This document shows positions 24,763-39,755 of a stretch of DNA of 42,676 nt, piece by piece; within the stretch, counting starts at the first letter, position 1; every line of letters begins with the position of its first letter. The stretch comes from Gemmatimonadaceae bacterium. Its GTDB lineage: Bacteria > Gemmatimonadota > Gemmatimonadetes > Gemmatimonadales > Gemmatimonadaceae. The stretch covers positions 1 through 42,676 of the forward strand of contig JALHNZ010000029.1 of assembly GCA_022843265.1 (NCBI GenBank). The letters run 5' to 3'. A model generated the notes under the pieces. It was not told the origin of the DNA. It saw nothing but the letters and a program-made list of their open reading frames with translations, and made no database searches. Position numbers and translations under genes: made by a program.

Positions 24763-26763
24763 CTATCGCGTTGCTGACGCCAGGTCGCGCACCGCAGCGG
24801 CGAGCATCCGAACTTTGGCCGCATCGCGCGCTCGGCCAGCATCACCGTCCAGCTGCGAAGCGAGCTGCGTGAGTGCGTCGCGACGCGCCGCGCCCATGGC
24901 ACGCTCGGCGGCACTGAGCGAGGTCCGCACGGCATTGATGCGTGACGACTCCAGCCCGTTTGAACGCTGCAGCTGATCTACGTACGCCAGCGCCAACGGG
25001 AATGACGGCGGCCACACGTACTTGGGCTGACCCTGCGGGTTCAGATACTCAAGTCGGACAGTCTTCGACGCATCAATCTCGTTCTGCGTCAGATGCGCAC
25101 TTGGCGCGAGCTCGAAAATGTCGAGACCACGCGCGATCTCAGAACTCACCAGCAGTCCGTTGTACCAGTACACCGACCACGTGCCACCCGTCTCCATCTT
25201 GGACGCGTCGATCGGGCCACGATCCTGATACGCAATTTCTACCGGATTCTTGATGTCGGTGAAATCAAAGATCGAGATGCCGCCCTGATACCACGACTGC
25301 ACCATGATGTCGCGGCCCGGCACCGGAATCATTGAACCGTTGTGTGCGACACAGTTTTCGGTGGCCGTCTGTGCAGCGGGCAGCTTGTAGTAGCTCTGGA
25401 ACTTGAGTGCACCGTTCTCGATCGTGAAGAGCGCGTTGGCACCCCACTCCCTGGGATCGCTTTCACGGCACTTGGGCGCTGTACCACCGCCCCACTCGTC
25501 CGTGAACAACACCTTGGTCGCGTCATTGTTGAACGTGGCGGAGTGCCAGTAGGCAAAGTTCGAATCAGAAACGGCGGTAATGCGCTTGGGATTGGCCGGA
25601 TCCTTGATGTCGAGCAGCAAGCCGTAGCCTTCGCACGCGCCGCCGGCGATTCCCTGCTCCGGATACAGCGTGATGTCATGGCACTGGTTGGGCCCCGGGG
25701 CCGGTCCGTCACCACCGGCCGCCGGTCCCACCATCTGGGCAATCATGGCGGGTAGCGATTCGCGAAGCTTCGCGCTGTCCGCAGCCGTTGCCGCGCCTGT
25801 GCCACCACGCGAGCGCACCACATTGGCCAACTGCGCCGCCGCAAATGCATCGGGCAGTACCATCGTTTCGCCCTGAACCTCAACAATGAATGCACCACGT
25901 GCACGGGCGCGATCGATCTCAGCCTTGTCATCCGGCGCCAGTCCATGTGACTTCGGAGCAACCAGGCCTTCGAAAATGCGCGGTGAGTTCACGATCGCGG
26001 CTTGCGTGGGATTCGCGAGCGGCACCTTGATCACTTCAATGCGGAAGAGTGCCGACTTGGGGTCAGCACTCGGCGGCGCGCCGGAGCAGCCGTCGAGTTC
26101 CGTGCTGGGGCGGACGGGCGCCGAGCCGGAGACGTACACGTACACGTTCTGCGCGTCCTTCGGATCCACGAGCACAGAGTGCGTGTGTGAACCTCGGCAG
26201 GTTTGCACGTTCGTGATGTATTTGGGATTGCGAACGTCGCTGATGTCAAAAATGCGAATGCCGCGCAAGCGATCCTTGCTTGAAGCGGCGGTCACCCCTT
26301 GTTCGCCGCAGTCCAGACGCCCTTCGAGTCCTTCACCCGACACAAACAAAAGGTTCTTATAGACCGACACATCACTCTGCGACGCGGGACACACGAGCTC
26401 TTTGACGATCACGGGCCGAGACGGAGTGGAGATGTCCCATACCTGGAAGCCGGCAAAGTTTCCCTGAAACACATAATCGCCGCGGAAAGCGAGATCGGAA
26501 TTCCACTTGCCAAGGAACGCCTGCGGTGGCTGCGTAAACGACACGCGCTTCATGTTCCACATGGCTTCGCCGGCATCGAACAGTCCGGCCTTGAGTCCTA
26601 CGCGCGGGTCAGGCGTGGGTGCCCCCGACGCCATGCGCGGGCTGGGAGCAGTACTGGTAGACGTTGCCGGCGCGCACGCCGCAAAGACGGCGAGCACGGC
26701 GACTGCACTCGCGGCAGCGCGCGGTGCACCTAAAACACGCGAAGAAAGCATCTCAAAGGCCAT
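24763..26763 (-). CDS. LVIVD-repeat lipoprotein
   Basis: About 666 residues from ATG 26763. The N-terminus is a lipoprotein signal ending in FAACAPA. The body contains repeated propeller-like phrases of the LVIVD type: FAGFQVWDISTPSRPVIVKE, GIRIFDISDVRNPKYITNV, LLLDIKDPANPKRITAV, ISIFDFTDIKNPVEIAYQD and GLDIFELAP. Conserved cysteines and histidines occur around CRGSHTHSVLV, QCHDITLYPE and CVAHNGSMIP. The last ~100 residues are helical and charged. The family is predicted to be extracellular and its function is unknown. The next gene upstream, a DUF305 lipoprotein, ends 43 bases before, so both are probably one transcript. ATG 26751 (five codons in) is an alternative start. The frame is open upstream to 26940, but that part overlaps the DUF305 gene. 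Confidence 0.85.
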   Translation of the reverse strand: MAFEMLSSRVLGAPRAAASAVAVLAVFAACAPATSTSTAPSPRMASGAPTPDPRVGLKAGLFDAGEAMWNMKRVSFTQPPQAFLGKWNSDLAFRGDYVFQGNFAGFQVWDISTPSRPVIVKELVCPASQSDVSVYKNLLFVSGEGLEGRLDCGEQGVTAASSKDRLRGIRIFDISDVRNPKYITNVQTCRGSHTHSVLVDPKDAQNVYVYVSGSAPVRPSTELDGCSGAPPSADPKSALFRIEVIKVPLANPTQAAIVNSPRIFEGLVAPKSHGLAPDDKAEIDRARARGAFIVEVQGETMVLPDAFAAAQLANVVRSRGGTGAATAADSAKLRESLPAMIAQMVGPAAGGDGPAPGPNQCHDITLYPEQGIAGGACEGYGLLLDIKDPANPKRITAVSDSNFAYWHSATFNNDATKVLFTDEWGGGTAPKCRESDPREWGANALFTIENGALKFQSYYKLPAAQTATENCVAHNGSMIPVPGRDIMVQSWYQGGISIFDFTDIKNPVEIAYQDRGPIDASKMETGGTWSVYWYNGLLVSSEIARGLDIFELAPSAHLTQNEIDASKTVRLEYLNPQGQPKYVWPPSFPLALAYVDQLQRSNGLESSRINAVRTSLSAAERAMGAARRDALTQLASQLDGDAGRARDAAKVRMLAAAVRDLASATR

Positions 26764-26806
26764 TTCAGAATCCGTGTGGAAAGCGGAGTACGTGGTGCGC
26801 GACGAA

Positions 26807-27502
26807 CTAACGATTGTTGCTCGTCGATCCCATCGCGTCGAGCATTTGTTGCATGCGTGCAACTTCGGTGCGCTGATCAACCTGCACATCAGACGCGAAC
26901 TTGAATACCGAATGATCCTGTCCAGCACCATCGGTGGCAAAGAGTGTGTCGACCATAACGACCGCGCCTCGATGATGCTGAATCATGAACGTCAGAAAGA
27001 GGCGGTCAAACTCACGGCCCTTCGCTGCGGCCAGCTCTGCAAGCTGTGCCGCAGTCAGCATGCCCGGCATGTTCGCGTGTGCTGCGTGCGAGACATCGCC
27101 GCCGTGCGCCGCGTGATCCGTCTGGAGCGCGGGCACGGGCTGCCGGCGATCGGAGAGCCAACGCTGCATGATGCGGATTTCGTCCGATTGTGCATTCACA
27201 ATGCGCGACGCAAGCGTTTGAATGGTCGGACCCGCGTTGTTCGTCGGCGCAAGATTCGACATGACAAGCGCCTGCGCGTGATGTCCGATCATGTCGGTCA
27301 TGAATCGCACGTCGGCGGGAGTGAATCGAAGCAGGGCCGAGTCCGTGCGGGCCCGCCAGATGGCCTCGGCTTCGGCTAGCGCCGGTGGTAATGTGGCCGG
27401 CTGCGGCGGCCCCGCTGGAGGTGCGGACGTTGCGCACGCGCTGGTGACGAGCAACACCAGCGGCAACACGCCTGACAGCGGAATAGAGCGACGAGCGTTC
27501 AT
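26807..27502 (-). CDS. DUF305 lipoprotein
   Basis: About 231 residues starting MNARRSIPLSG, with a lipoprotein signal (LVTSAC). Two DUF305 (ferritin-like) His-rich repeats are clear: FMTDMIGHHAQALVMSNLA and FMIQHHRGAVVMVDTLF. Each gives HH plus Met residues suited to binding a metal such as copper. Family members are thought to act in metal handling at the envelope; that is established only for a few. A Pro/Ala linker follows the lipobox. The start at 27502 was chosen over the open frame to 27565 because it gives the lipoprotein signal. It is first in the operon with the LVIVD gene and divergent from the MBL-RidA fusion gene. Confidence 0.87.
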   Translation of the reverse strand: MNARRSIPLSGVLPLVLLVTSACATSAPPAGPPQPATLPPALAEAEAIWRARTDSALLRFTPADVRFMTDMIGHHAQALVMSNLAPTNNAGPTIQTLASRIVNAQSDEIRIMQRWLSDRRQPVPALQTDHAAHGGDVSHAAHANMPGMLTAAQLAELAAAKGREFDRLFLTFMIQHHRGAVVMVDTLFATDGAGQDHSVFKFASDVQVDQRTEVARMQQMLDAMGSTSNNR

Positions 27503-27541
27503 AGCACGAAGTGTAGCAGACTTGAGGGGCGAAGCAGAGAG

Positions 27542-27563
27542 GAGCGGCCACCCTCGGCCGCTC
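27542..27563. promoter_or_regulatory. Inverted repeat in the divergent intergenic region
   Basis: Perfect 8-bp arms GAGCGGCC/GGCCGCTC (27542-27549 and 27556-27563) with a 6-base loop. It lies in the 209-base gap (27503-27711) between DUF305 and the fusion gene, near the DUF305 start. No T tract follows on either strand, so it is not a terminator; it could be an operator or leader hairpin. GC-rich palindromes also arise by chance in this genome. No clear promoter boxes are visible in the gap. Confidence 0.3.
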
Positions 27564-27711
27564 ACCCGTCATTACACCAAAGCCTTTGCATCGGTCTTTG
27601 TTCGGCCGCGAGTTCTCGTTGGGGATTCTTGAGCGCTGGGTATAGCGCGTCGATGCCGCGAACGGCACATATAGGGCGCGCTGCCCTCACCATACCCCGG
27701 ACGTTCTCCAG

Positions 27712-30165
27712 ATGACCGTCGCTCCCGCCCATCGCCTCGCCCTCGGCGCCGCCTCTCTGTTTGCCCTCAGCGCGCGTGAACTACCGCGTTACGATCGCAC
27801 GCTGCTCCTTGAGACCACCTCCGAGACCTCCGCCAACGCAAGCTTCGGCGACCTCGACGGCGACGGACACCTCGACATCGTCCTGGCCAAGGGTCGACAC
27901 TGGCCGCTTGTGAGTCGCGTGTTGCTCGGCGATGGTCGCGGCGGGGTCAGGGCAGCATACGATCTCGGACCAACGGCAGAGAAGACCTACTCGGCGCGCC
28001 TCGTGGACCTCGATGGCGATGGCGATCTCGACGTCGTGACGAGCAATGATGCGCCGAGTCGGAAGCTGGTGTATTTGAACGATGGCAAAGGCAGGTTCTC
28101 CGTCGGCTCGGAGTACGGGCGCCCCGACTGGCCGATGCGCAATGCCACTGTCGCCGATATGAACGGCGATGGACGCCCGGACATCATCGCCGCCAATCGT
28201 TACGGCCGCACCGCGGGCTCCAACTACATCTGCCTCAACCGCGGCGCAGGGCGGTTTGATGCCGAGTGCATTCCGTTCGCGAGCGAGCCTGCGACAACCA
28301 TCACGGCGGCGGATTTCAACGGAGACGGCTTCACCGACCTGCTGGTGCCACATCGCAATGGCGGTCAGAGTCGCCTCTACTTTGGTGCAGTCTCAGCGGA
28401 TCTCAGCAAGCTACGCAGCGTACCCTTCGGCCCGGCGGACGCACAAATTCGCATCGCCGAAGCAGCTGACCTGAATGGCGACGGACGCATGGACGTGGTG
28501 ACGATTGATGAAACGCGCGGTGTTGCCGTGTACGAAGGGCGCGGCGATGGCAGCTTCGCCGCGCCTCGCGCCGTTGGAGAGCGCGGCGTTGTGCCCTACG
28601 CACTCGCCGTGGGCGATCCCAACTGCGATGGCAAAGCGGATTTCATCGTCGGCAACATTCGCGCGCAGACCACCGTGTACTTCAACGATGGCAACGGAGA
28701 GCGCTTTACCCCGGTCACGATGGGTGATGCGCAAGGCGCCGCCTACGGTATCGGCATCGGTGACTTCGATGGAGATGGTCGCCCCGACATTGCCGTTGCA
28801 CGCTCGGAAGCGCCGAACGCGCTCTACTTTGGCGCTGGCAGCATGCCCTGCGCGCGCAACGCTGCCGCGGCGCCAGTTCAGGGCGCGATGAAAGCGGGCG
28901 AACTCCGTCTGGCCTACCTCGGCAACGCCGGCTGGGAGATCACGGACGGACAGACCGTGGTGTTAGTTGATCCCTTCGTGACGCAATTCAATCGCTGGAA
29001 CCGCGGTGGTACGGAGCGCGTGATTGCCCCGACCGATCCGTATCCCGCGGACACCGCGCTCATCAACCGTCACATCCAGCGCGCCGACTACATCCTGATT
29101 ACGCATGGTCACTCCGATCACGCGCTCGACGCGGGCCCGATCAGCAAGCGCACCGGTGCGGTGATCATCGGCACGGAGACCGCCGCCAATCTCGCGCGTG
29201 CGTACGACGTTGCCGAAGACAAGCTGATTACGGTTGTTGGCGGCGAGGACTACGACTTTGAGACCTTCTCGCTGCGCGTGATTCCCAGCATCCACAGCGC
29301 GCTCGACGACAAGCGTTACTTCGGTAACGGGCGAGGCATCGCCGGCACCGCACCGCGCGGACTGCGCGCGCCGTTGCGCCGCAACGAGTATCAGGAAGGT
29401 GGAAGCCTTGCCTACCTGATTCGCATCGGTGGCCACGAAGTGCTGGCCATGGGCTCCATGAACTTTCTCGAGCGCGAGATGGAGGGGCTGCGGCCAGACA
29501 TCGCGCTCGTGGGAGCCAATAGCCAACGATTGGAGATCTTCAACTACACGGGGCGCTTGATGCGCGCGCTTGGCTACCCGGCCGTCGTCATTCCTTCGCA
29601 TGCAGACGGTTATGGGAATCCGAATCCACCGGCGGCGGCGTTGGCAGACCGCGAGAAATTTCTCGGTGAAGTCGCTGCCGCATCGCCCATGAGCCGGACG
29701 ATCGTGCCCGTTTGGTTTGAACCGATCGTGATACCGGCGCGCGATATGACGCGCGAGGCCGCGATTCGCCGGAGCGCCGAACGGCGGCGCATCGACCCGC
29801 CCGGACTCGCCCCGCTGGTGCCGGCGTACTCCGTGGCCATTCGCGACGGCGACTTCGTTTTTGTGTCCGGCATGACAGGCGTCGTGCCGGGCACGCAAGA
29901 CATCATCGACGGTGGTGTGGCTGCTCAGACTCGGCAAACGTTGGAGAACATTCGCGGCTCGCTCGAGGCGGCTGGTGCAACGATGGCAGATGTGGGCGAA
30001 TGCACCGTGTTCCTCACGAGCATGGCGGACTATGCGGCGATGAACGCGGAATACATCCGATTCTTCCCTGTTGATCCACCGAGCCGCGCGACGCTCGCGG
30101 TCACGTCGCTGCCGCGACCAGCGGCGCGCGTCGAAATCAAATGCAGTGCGCGCTTGCGGCGGTGA
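27712..30165 (+). CDS. FG-GAP propeller - MBL-fold - RidA fusion protein
   Basis: 817 residues in one uninterrupted frame. The N-terminus (about 1-22) looks like a signal peptide. Residues about 40-385 hold seven FG-GAP/VCBS repeats with Ca-binding loops (FGDLDGDGHLD, LVDLDGDGDLD, ADMNGDGRPD, ADFNGDGFTD, ADLNGDGRMD, GDPNCDGKAD, GDFDGDGRPD), enough for a seven-bladed propeller. Residues about 395-690 form a metallo-beta-lactamase-fold domain of the UlaG-like type with HGHSDH (465-470) and later HADGYGNP. Residues about 699-813 form a RidA/YjgF domain with FVFVSGMTG, TRQTLENIRGSLEAAGA, R792 in PSRATLAV and E808 in RVEIK. RidA proteins hydrolyse reactive imines and normally act in the cytoplasm, so export would be odd. 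The ATG at 27712 lacks a strong Shine-Dalgarno. A stand-alone gene. Confidence 0.9.
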   Translation: MTVAPAHRLALGAASLFALSARELPRYDRTLLLETTSETSANASFGDLDGDGHLDIVLAKGRHWPLVSRVLLGDGRGGVRAAYDLGPTAEKTYSARLVDLDGDGDLDVVTSNDAPSRKLVYLNDGKGRFSVGSEYGRPDWPMRNATVADMNGDGRPDIIAANRYGRTAGSNYICLNRGAGRFDAECIPFASEPATTITAADFNGDGFTDLLVPHRNGGQSRLYFGAVSADLSKLRSVPFGPADAQIRIAEAADLNGDGRMDVVTIDETRGVAVYEGRGDGSFAAPRAVGERGVVPYALAVGDPNCDGKADFIVGNIRAQTTVYFNDGNGERFTPVTMGDAQGAAYGIGIGDFDGDGRPDIAVARSEAPNALYFGAGSMPCARNAAAAPVQGAMKAGELRLAYLGNAGWEITDGQTVVLVDPFVTQFNRWNRGGTERVIAPTDPYPADTALINRHIQRADYILITHGHSDHALDAGPISKRTGAVIIGTETAANLARAYDVAEDKLITVVGGEDYDFETFSLRVIPSIHSALDDKRYFGNGRGIAGTAPRGLRAPLRRNEYQEGGSLAYLIRIGGHEVLAMGSMNFLEREMEGLRPDIALVGANSQRLEIFNYTGRLMRALGYPAVVIPSHADGYGNPNPPAAALADREKFLGEVAAASPMSRTIVPVWFEPIVIPARDMTREAAIRRSAERRRIDPPGLAPLVPAYSVAIRDGDFVFVSGMTGVVPGTQDIIDGGVAAQTRQTLENIRGSLEAAGATMADVGECTVFLTSMADYAAMNAEYIRFFPVDPPSRATLAVTSLPRPAARVEIKCSARLRR

Positions 30166-36757: not shown

Positions 36758-37339
36758 ATGACCGACTCCACCGACGACCTCACCGAGCAGGTGCTCTCAC
36801 TGGGACTCGATCCGGCGCTGGCGCAGGTCGTGTTCCCGCTCGTGTACGACGAGCTGCGTCGCATTGCACGACAGGCACTCAGCAACGAACAGACGGGCCA
36901 CACACTCGACACCACCTCGCTGGTGCACGAGGCCTATTTGCGACTGGTCGATTCGTCGCGCGTCCCGTGGGAAGACCGGAGCCGCTTCCTGGCCGTGGCC
37001 GCCACCGCCATGCGACACATTCTGGTGGACCACGCGCGCCGTCGACATGCCCTGAAGCGCGGTCATGCGCCAATCGCCGTCGACCTCGAAAAGGTGCCGT
37101 TGTCAGTTGATGAGTCGGCCGACACACTCATTGCGCTCGACGATGCACTCACGCGGCTCGGTGCGCTGTCGCCGCGCCTGGTGCAGGTGGTGGAATGTCG
37201 CTTCTTCATTGGCATGACCGAAGAAGAAACCGCCGTCGCACTCGGCGTGACCGCGCGCACGGTGCGCCGCGACTGGACCAAAGCCAAAGCCTGGCTGGCG
37301 GTCGTGATGTCCGGAGACACGCCTGATCACACGCCTTAA
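36758..37339 (+). CDS. ECF-type RNA polymerase sigma factor
   Basis: 193 residues of the Sigma70_ECF type common in Planctomycetes and Gemmatimonadota (regions 2 and 4 only). Region 2: FPLVYDELRRIARQAL, then TTSLVHEAYLRLVD and RFLAVAATAMRHILVDHARR. Region 4 helix-turn-helix: FFIGMTEEETAVALGVTART followed by VRRDWTKAKAWL. The gene lies 58 bases upstream of a transmembrane Ser/Thr kinase with a TPR-like C-terminal part. This pairing is typical; the kinase may control the sigma factor. No anti-sigma factor is present. The 108-base gap upstream shows no clear promoter. Confidence 0.93.
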   Translation: MTDSTDDLTEQVLSLGLDPALAQVVFPLVYDELRRIARQALSNEQTGHTLDTTSLVHEAYLRLVDSSRVPWEDRSRFLAVAATAMRHILVDHARRRHALKRGHAPIAVDLEKVPLSVDESADTLIALDDALTRLGALSPRLVQVVECRFFIGMTEEETAVALGVTARTVRRDWTKAKAWLAVVMSGDTPDHTP

Positions 37340-37397
37340 CAGCAACCGATCAGCAATCGATCAACACTCGTTTCTCACGCCACGTCGCTCTGACCAC

Positions 37398-39755
37398 ATG
37401 AGTCACCCGCTGGAGTCGCCAGACCTCTGGGCACGTCTTGAACCGGCGCTTGATACGGTGCTCGAGTTGACGGGTGCCGATCGTGACACCTGGCTCGCAC
37501 GATGCGCACGTGACGATCCCGCGTTGTATCACGCCACGCTGCAAATGCTCCGTCAGGACGACCAGATCTTTACGGGCACCGCGATGGATCTGGCCGCACC
37601 GCTGCTGCCGGTGTTTGCCGAACAGGGTCGCAGTGAGTTGCTTGAGGCCGGATCACTGGTTGGCCCGTATCGCATTATGCGCCGCATCGGTGATGGTGGC
37701 ATGGGCGTGGTGTACTATGCCGAGCGTGCGGACGGCCAGTTCGACATGCCGGTTGCGCTCAAGGTGGTGCGACAACACACACGTGCGAACCACAACTTTG
37801 CGCAGCGCTTTCTGAGCGAACGTCAGACGCTCGCACGGCTCGTGCATCCCAATATCGCGCGTCTCCTCGACGGCGGTGTCGCGCAGGACGGACGTCCGTA
37901 CTTCGCCATGGAGTACGTGCAGGGACTTCCGCTTGTAGAACACGCAGCGCAACGCACACTGTCGCTCACGGCGCGACTGCAGCTGTTTCTGCAGACATGT
38001 GCCGCCGTACAGTACGCGCACGAAAATCTGGTCATTCACCGCGATATCAAGCCATCGAATGTGTTGGTGACCGCTGGTGGTGAGGTCAAGTTGCTCGACT
38101 TTGGCGTGGCCAAGGTGCTCGCTGACGCAGACAGAGACACCAACAGCGCCGGAGCCTCGGGTGGTGATGCACCCGCTACCATGCTTATCACGCCAGCGTA
38201 CGCGAGTCCCGAACAGCTGCGTGGGGAATCCGTGACCACGGCGAGTGATGTGTATTCACTCGGTGTGGTGCTGTACGAACTGCTCACTGGCCGTCGACCC
38301 GTTGAACTCGGTAACGTGCCACCGCATCGGTGGCTTGATGTGCTGGCACGTGATGCGGTCGTACCTGCGTCGCAGGTGCGCAGTACGGGACTCAACATCA
38401 CCAGAGATCTCGACGCAATCCTGTCCACCGCGCTGCGTTATGAGCCGAGCGGACGCTATCGCACGGTCGACGCGCTGGCGAGTGATGTACAACGATACCT
38501 CGCCAATCGACCGGTGCGCGCGAGGCCCGCCACGTTGGGATATCGACTCGCGCGATTCTGGACCCGACATCGTACTGCGGTAGTGCTCGGCGCCGTGGCG
38601 TCTGTTGTGTTGGTGTCTTTCACCGCGGTCACGGCACTGCAATCGCGGCGCATTCAATCCGAAGCCATGACCGCGATTGCGCAGAGCACTCGTGCGGAAC
38701 GCGTGAACAGTTTTCTGTTGAGCATGTTTGGCTCGTTGTATCCGTACGCCACAACAGGTGGTGTGCCAACACCCAGTCGAATGCTCGACAGTGCGGTGGC
38801 TCGCATTGAACGGGACTTTGCGGGTGCACCGGTAGACGCGGCGCGGCTGCTTTCGCAGATCAGCTCCGCCTACTTTGGCGTGGGCGACTTTGGCGGCGCC
38901 GAACGCGCTGCGCGCCTGGCGCTGGCGTACGAAGGTCAGAGCGATCGCCCCGACTCACTCATGATGGCGGCGCATCTGCAAAACCTTGGGCTTGTGCTGA
39001 GTTATGCTGGCGGTGGCAAGGACGGTGAGCTGGAGCTGCGACAGAGTCTTGCCCTCTGGCGTCAGCTCAAAGGCGACACCGCGACCAGTGTTGCACGCGG
39101 CCTGAACGCACTTGGTGTGCATCTGGTGCGGCGTGGATACACCGACGAACCCGACAGCCTGATTCGTGTAGCGCTCGTCATGGATTCATCATTTCGTGCC
39201 ACGCAGCCCATGTTCCTGGCACAGAGCCGTCGCAACCTCGGACACGCGCTGCGTGAACGCCGGGCGTATTCAGAAGCGAAGACACAATACGAGTTGGCGC
39301 TCGCTATTCTGCGTGCACGCGTTGGCGACGATAATCCGGAAGTGGGCAACGGCTACATCAATCTCGGCCTGACCATGCACGGCCTTGGGCATAGCGATTC
39401 GGCACGCACATTGGTTCGGGAAGGACTCGCGCTTCGCTATCGACTGCTCGGCCGCGAACATGACGACATTGCGGCCGACGAAGTGCACTACGCGCGACTG
39501 TTGATAGAATCACAGCAGTGGGCGCCCGCAGAGTCGCTTCTGGTGCACGCGCTTGAGATTCAGCGCCGCGGTCCCGCGCGCAGTTCGAACCTGGCTGCCA
39601 CGTTGCGCGCGCTTGGCACGCTGCGTTTCGAGCGCGGCAATCGTGACGAGGCGTGCCGCATGCTGCGCGAGCAAGACCAGATCATCCGCGGGACAGATGG
39701 CTACGCGGAACCCGTGCGGCAGGAGGCGGAGGCAGCGGCGCGGGTGTGTGCGTAG
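37398..39755 (+). CDS. Transmembrane Ser/Thr protein kinase with TPR-like sensor
   Basis: 785 residues. A short N-terminal helical region is followed by a Hanks-type kinase domain (about 91-370): glycine loop IGDGGMGVVYYAE (97-109), ATP-binding K122, catalytic HRDIKPSN (H214-D216), DFG (D234-G236) and APE-like SPEQLRG. A single membrane segment (about 394-413) puts the C-terminal part, about 430-785, outside. That part has TPR-like helical repeats (NLGLVLSYAGG, RRNLGHALRERRAYSEAKTQ, YINLGLTMHGLGHSDSA). The kinase should transduce an external or periplasmic signal to cytoplasmic proteins, possibly the sigma factor encoded just before it. All catalytic residues appear intact. Confidence 0.94.
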   Translation: MSHPLESPDLWARLEPALDTVLELTGADRDTWLARCARDDPALYHATLQMLRQDDQIFTGTAMDLAAPLLPVFAEQGRSELLEAGSLVGPYRIMRRIGDGGMGVVYYAERADGQFDMPVALKVVRQHTRANHNFAQRFLSERQTLARLVHPNIARLLDGGVAQDGRPYFAMEYVQGLPLVEHAAQRTLSLTARLQLFLQTCAAVQYAHENLVIHRDIKPSNVLVTAGGEVKLLDFGVAKVLADADRDTNSAGASGGDAPATMLITPAYASPEQLRGESVTTASDVYSLGVVLYELLTGRRPVELGNVPPHRWLDVLARDAVVPASQVRSTGLNITRDLDAILSTALRYEPSGRYRTVDALASDVQRYLANRPVRARPATLGYRLARFWTRHRTAVVLGAVASVVLVSFTAVTALQSRRIQSEAMTAIAQSTRAERVNSFLLSMFGSLYPYATTGGVPTPSRMLDSAVARIERDFAGAPVDAARLLSQISSAYFGVGDFGGAERAARLALAYEGQSDRPDSLMMAAHLQNLGLVLSYAGGGKDGELELRQSLALWRQLKGDTATSVARGLNALGVHLVRRGYTDEPDSLIRVALVMDSSFRATQPMFLAQSRRNLGHALRERRAYSEAKTQYELALAILRARVGDDNPEVGNGYINLGLTMHGLGHSDSARTLVREGLALRYRLLGREHDDIAADEVHYARLLIESQQWAPAESLLVHALEIQRRGPARSSNLAATLRALGTLRFERGNRDEACRMLREQDQIIRGTDGYAEPVRQEAEAAARVCA

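Follow-up and report, generated by a model that had tools for sequence, protein, structure and literature searches.

Each of the three domains of the protein described here is known from other proteins. The VCBS/FG-GAP propellers of CRTAC1, integrin alpha, the PVL lectin and aldos-2-ulose dehydratase (AUDH) have seven blades and carry DxDGDG calcium-binding motifs, as our propeller does, and they are secreted, as it very probably is. It differs from them in having a conserved polar set of its own (GRHW ... NR ... RS), and propellers of its type have enzyme partners at their C- or N-terminus. The second domain has the metallo-beta-lactamase (MBL) fold, and the subclass B3 metallo-beta-lactamases, which are exported, have as their ligand set an HxHxDH motif and two further His residues, with a Ser at motif IV. 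RidA proteins, which represent the third domain, have been studied as cytoplasmic guards against reactive imines. The RidA/YjgF/YER057c/UK114 (Rid) family, including 3x-RidA, shares its fold and an active-site Arg and Glu with our domain, and tandem or fused Rid domains are already known (3x-RidA, PMC4433059). The RidA domain reported here differs in that it is very probably exported and is fused to an MBL domain and a propeller.

The fusion gene

The gene is located in a contig of a Gemmatimonadaceae bacterium, of which a 42,676-nucleotide stretch, referred to here as the window, was analysed (Table 1). The frame is open from the ATG at 27712 to the stop codon at 30163-30165 and has zero internal stops. 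Pfam matches to the fusion are FG-GAP_3 (PF13517; 164 bits, E 9e-49, 6 stretches), FG-GAP (PF01839; 101 bits, 7 stretches), Lactamase_B_3 (PF13483; 33.4 bits against a cut-off of 24), Lactamase_B (PF00753; 29.4 bits against 22.7) and Ribonuc_L-PSP (PF01042; 90.4 bits against 27.3, E 1e-25, residues 705-814). The AlphaFold model, a monomer built from a 65-row alignment, has a mean pLDDT of 87; residues 26-375 form 28 strands, that is, seven four-stranded blades, and the MBL and RidA parts follow. The linker at residues 382-390 has low confidence, and the placement of the domains relative to each other is unreliable (pTM 0.54). Thus, the preliminary description of a single intact frame joining seven FG-GAP repeats, an MBL domain and a RidA domain is borne out, and because the MBL and RidA profiles both match, a protein without one of these two domains is excluded. 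Nothing of relevance came out of scans of the window for Rfam families, tRNAs and promoters.

Table 1. Coordinates of the fusion gene and of its features in the window
Feature	Position	Strand	Evidence
Whole fusion gene, 817 aa (predicted signal peptide, propeller, MBL, RidA)	27712..30165	+	Open frame, Pfam, AlphaFold model
Predicted N-terminal signal peptide, residues 1-21 (MTVAPAHR-LALGAASLFAL-SA)	27712..27774	+	Crude Sec-signal scoring, homologous N-termini included
Seven-bladed FG-GAP/VCBS propeller, residues 23-376, repeated DxDGDG motifs	27778..28839	+	Pfam, model, structural matches
Invariant GRHW of propeller, residues 61-64	27892..27903	+	Alignment A4, 19 propellers
MBL-fold domain, residues 396-682	28897..29757	+	Pfam, relatives' alignment, model, Foldseek
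HGHSDH metal motif (H465, H467, D469, H470); further ligands H528, H630	29104..29121	+	Invariant, 18 aligned relatives
Motif IV GSMN, residues 581-584; Ser582 replaces the Asp of UlaG/UPF0173 (GDT)	29452..29463	+	Relatives' alignment
RidA domain, residues 690-816	29779..30159	+	Pfam, alignment
RidA Tyr706	29827-29829	+	Alignment
RidA active-site Arg792 (E. coli RidA Arg105)	30085..30087	+	Alignment A3
RidA Glu808	30133-30135	+	Alignment

The same propeller-MBL-RidA order occurs as a single frame in two other Gemmatimonadaceae assemblies (L008 and L009, the latter with the G126 gene), and this recurrence in related species, which had been named as the check on a real fusion, confirms it. The dN/dS ratios between the window gene and L008 are 0.09 for the propeller, 0.05 for the MBL part and 0.08 for the RidA part; against the L009/G126 gene they are 0.13, 0.20 and 0.09. 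Judged by these ratios, purifying selection acts on each of the three domains and keeps them functional. Although the window comes from a 211-contig draft and homologues occur as separate genes, there is hardly any chance that an assembly or sequencing error merged separate genes, and we rule this out, because two independent assemblies share the order, dN/dS is low and the frame is unbroken. Relatives do have separate genes that split near residues 390 and 695, the points named in the preliminary description; these are natural variants found elsewhere and not a sign of an error here.

Export

The N-terminus of the window protein scores as a Sec signal by the crude rule with which export signals were scored, and by the same rule signals are present in 56 of 64 propeller-first, 27 of 30 MBL-first and all 12 RidA-first proteins. 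Many of the MBL-first and RidA-first signals carry a lipobox, and textbook signals are found in L016 (Sphingomonas) and L010. Since each part usually has its own export signal when it is encoded separately, the module very probably acts outside the cytoplasm. The fusion protein is therefore very probably exported, as had been proposed from its hydrophobic N-terminal stretch, at least so far as N-terminal sequences can tell. A Cys pair in the propeller (C174 and C186) is conserved in the closer relatives and would suit an oxidising compartment.

A second Cys pair, in the RidA domain (C764 and C811), was considered as a mark of export and rejected; all of the exported clade has it, but so do homologues with no detected signal. 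Most of the RidA controls have no signal, and three (L002, L004 and L059) have one, so exported RidA paralogues also exist outside the module. Two of these, L002 (G000:C22:51916-52281) and L004 (C16:30395-30736), are from the window's own genome; the N-terminus of each resembles an export signal, and the Cys pair recurs at the same two positions.

The three domains

Conservation in the propeller was read from 19 propellers from at least three phyla, with 36-78% identity to the window. Besides the Asp residues of the calcium loops, G61, R62, H63, W64, Y93, N112, D113, R143, N162, R163, I197, R215, R247, Y345 and S365 are invariant. The invariant polar residues occur at like positions in successive blades and therefore probably line one face, so that GRHW and the invariants from Y93 to S365 would form a probable conserved polar face. 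The propeller had been suggested to be a calcium-stabilised scaffold; with so many invariant polar residues outside the calcium loops, it is probably more than that. The VIA-align rows are all propeller and are silent on the MBL and RidA parts.

The MBL part has the fold of its superfamily and the HxHxDH motif plus two further His by Pfam, model and Foldseek, and all of the ligands in Table 1 are the same in the 18 relatives. Its best structural matches are the TM1162-type UPF0173 protein (3x2y), Igni18 and UlaG, the L-ascorbate-6-phosphate lactonase; UPF0173 and UlaG also have the HxHxDH motif. Compared with these two, our domain has about 20% identity, is very probably exported, has a Ser at motif IV (GSM in place of GDT) and scores below the cut-offs of the UPF0173 model PRK00685 (55.9 against 144 bits) and the UlaG equivalog model PRK11709 (16.1 against 306 bits). 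Among the 18 relatives motif IV is GSMN, or GGMN in one, and never contains Asp. UlaG has two bridging aspartates, Asp121 and Asp226 (PMC3219644), and because the position of the second is occupied by Ser582, a defining feature of UlaG is absent. The HGHSDH motif noted earlier is at residues 465-470. The earlier term UlaG-like holds for the fold only; membership in the UlaG-type lactonases or UPF0173 is ruled out on motif IV, and a lactone-hydrolysing enzyme of the ascorbate-6-phosphate type is not indicated. The ligand set, with its motif-IV Ser, recalls that of the B3 enzymes, and the metal site is probably dinuclear. Despite the similar ligand pattern, a true B3 beta-lactamase is ruled out by scores far below the family models (12 against 240 bits for the NCBIfam subclass B3 model and 13.8 against 560 bits for the L1 model), and the closest fold is that of UPF0173/UlaG.

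In the RidA part, Arg792 and Glu808 align with the active-site Arg and Glu of E. coli RidA, the Arg is invariant in the alignment and Tyr706 is kept; the usual Arg and Glu are thus intact, as first noted. The active-site Arg is considered to determine whether a Rid protein has imine deaminase activity, and Rid proteins that have it are active in vitro (PMC5619798). With 86.9 bits against a cut-off of 106.25 for NCBIfam TIGR00004 (Rid detoxifying hydrolase), the domain belongs to the Rid family outside that curated subfamily. The terms "lactamase", "periplasm" and "signal peptide" are absent from the main text of a survey of Rid proteins (PMC4433059).

Arrangements in relatives

The fusion is real, as had been claimed, and it represents one layout among several for a conserved module of three parts. 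In what follows, P is the VCBS propeller, M the MBL-fold metallohydrolase and R the RidA, and PMR, MRP and RP give the order in a fusion. The opposite order, MRP, occurs in one frame at three loci (L011, L014 and L036) and in a broken frame in L015; RP occurs in one frame in G039 and L146. An MBL-RidA gene is followed by a separate propeller gene in L013 and L017 and is convergent with the propeller in G230 and G236. Separate MBL and RidA genes lie beside a divergent propeller in G263, G189 and G173, RidA and propeller are convergent in G249, and the parts are also neighbours (tandem, convergent or divergent) in G294. In another family, MBL and propeller genes overlap or abut (G069, G082, G154, G256 and G277), and G122, also from another family, has a co-directional operon of three genes, propeller, MBL and RidA, in the order of the window fusion.

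The RidA that adjoins the MBL is a tandem triple RidA in G226 and G122. Such a 3x-RidA is taken as a covalent trimer unit (PMC4433059) and would suit a Rid trimer as the core of a particle. At three loci, L055 (1083-2579), L151 (9234-10574, minus strand) and L182 (8282-9763), an MBL of the same kind carries an N-terminal domain from another Rid family (PF14588, YjgF_endoribonc), and therefore the MBL-Rid pairing arose more than once.

Three other observations concern these genes. The RP fusion at L146 / L157:7603-9420 (G039) has a signal sequence and no MBL part. The exported protein of G122 (L148:8102-10120, minus strand), which adjoins the MBL and propeller genes, has three tandem RidA domains followed by an Amidohydro_2 amidohydrolase. 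In a member of the Chitinophagaceae (L021:4971-7979), a propeller of the same family runs on, in one 1003-aa frame, into what resembles a second propeller and an esterase.

A tree of 49 propellers places the PMR propellers in a clade (100/99) near Bacteroidota propellers, the MRP and RP propellers in a distinct clade (100/100) and the unfused Gemmatimonadaceae neighbour propellers in a third, while the MBL parts of all of the fused forms group together. Different propeller lineages therefore joined the same enzyme at opposite ends and, by these trees, PMR and MRP fusions go back to separate propeller lineages.

Co-occurrence of the parts

At E<=1e-40, the MBL and/or the exported RidA are present in 42 of 298 Gemmatimonadota genomes. 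A propeller is encoded by 35 of these 42 and by 33 of the remaining 256 (Fisher p 6e-20, without correction for kinship), and by our own count it is fused or adjacent in 18 of the 35 genomes that have both, where well under one chance adjacency would be expected in genomes of some thousands of genes. Because order and orientation vary, this linkage is not mere conserved synteny. Some genomes have only the RidA or only the MBL, and no conserved operon partner emerged from clustering the neighbours of the loci, nor was a substrate, transporter or regulator gene conserved beside the module.

One explanation for these patterns is that fusion serves only the export, stability or co-regulation of domains whose substrates have nothing to do with each other. 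Where a genome has both, the parts are distant or on different contigs in about half of the cases, and in Bacteroidota and Acidobacteriota the propeller is present with no close MBL or RidA and therefore can serve other partners. However, fusion has occurred repeatedly and independently in opposite orders, and the genes are neighbours in many orientations; without a joint function this is difficult to account for, and we consider such a loose association unlikely. Because relatives fuse, reorder or cluster the same three parts, propeller, MBL and RidA very probably share a single task, carried out outside the cytoplasm.

Two genes divergent from the fusion gene, a DUF305 gene (26807-27565, minus strand) and beside it a 725-aa gene with no Pfam match (24763-26940, minus strand), are found close to M or P in two further genomes as well and were considered as module members. 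They were rejected; the recurrence of the 725-aa gene is uninformative because homologues occur in 252 of the 298 Gemmatimonadota genomes. An ECF sigma factor gene followed by a Ser/Thr kinase gene with TPRs is found at 36758-39755 (plus strand) in the window.

Possible functions

We give about an even chance to the reading that the fusion is an exported hydrolase with two or three functions, in which a conserved extracytoplasmic P-M-R module that carries out coupled steps is built as a single chain; the two-step hydrolase of the preliminary description remains the best reading. The RidA part would trimerise like other Rid proteins, whose active sites lie between subunits, and so display three MBL sites and three propellers. 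The polar face of the propeller would bind the substrate, and the MBL site would cleave an acyl, lactam, lactone or similar bond. Most conjecturally, the product might carry or collapse to an enamine or imine, which the RidA in the same particle would hydrolyse to a carbonyl compound and ammonia before it reacts. The likely use is the scavenging or detoxifying of an environmental nitrogen compound. A bolder version, tentative and rather doubtful, is an as yet undescribed extracytoplasmic imine-metabolism system of the Gemmatimonadota in which the propeller is itself catalytic and combines with MBL and Rid in a single substrate-channelling particle, giving three active sites. Repeated independent fusions, in both orders and with two Rid families, would have brought RidA chemistry known from the cytoplasm to the periplasm or outside.

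The imines could also come from an exported flavin amine oxidase or dehydrogenase that acts on amines such as spermidine; RidA would clear them, the MBL would open lactams or lactones derived from the aldehyde products and the propeller would be a scaffold. In G235 a flavoprotein (L170:5482-7377) with a Pfam FAD/NAD-binding domain and a twin-arginine-like start, which we take to be spermidine-dehydrogenase-like, is encoded directly upstream of an MBL-RidA-propeller gene; G226 has an amine oxidase two genes upstream of its MBL and 3x-RidA, and the MBL frame of G165 starts with an amine-oxidase fragment. Rid proteins also accelerate D-arginine dehydrogenase in vitro (PMC5619798). However, these are only three of about 40 loci, their oxidases differ and no oxidase was found beside the window gene, which makes this origin of the imines improbable.

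Similarly small odds attach to an amino-sugar pathway in which a catalytic, AUDH-like propeller makes an unsaturated amino compound that RidA deaminates, and the MBL is a sugar lactonase acting on oxidised amino sugars. In comparisons of overall fold, AUDH is among the best propeller matches (Z 33, 347 aligned, 14% identity), and the invariant GRHW, ND, NR, R and Y residues could be catalytic in such a propeller. Yet the propellers of integrins, LGI1 and CRTAC1 match about as well, 14% identity shows no common function and the surroundings of the loci contain no conserved carbohydrate genes. Pseudoalteromonas cannot use oxidised-chitin amino sugar without a certain RidA protein, which is cytoplasmic and of unknown role (PMC9537276). 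It is a precedent for Rid in amino-sugar breakdown and no proof for the window protein.

Significance

The preliminary description knew of no protein with this domain order, and we found none in the literature searched, with subscription journals mostly outside it; with the same scope, we found no description of the combination, the two orders, the MBL-Rid pairing, the exported Rid clade or RidA enzymes outside the cytoplasm. A conserved, exported RidA that is repeatedly fused to the same metallohydrolase and propeller implies that imines or enamines are formed by a reaction outside the cytoplasm, and that this reaction matters enough to be coupled within a single particle. The fusions in both orders are a natural "Rosetta stone", which points to one shared, testable function for the propeller clade, the GSMN-type MBL and the exported Rid, all three of them uncharacterised families.
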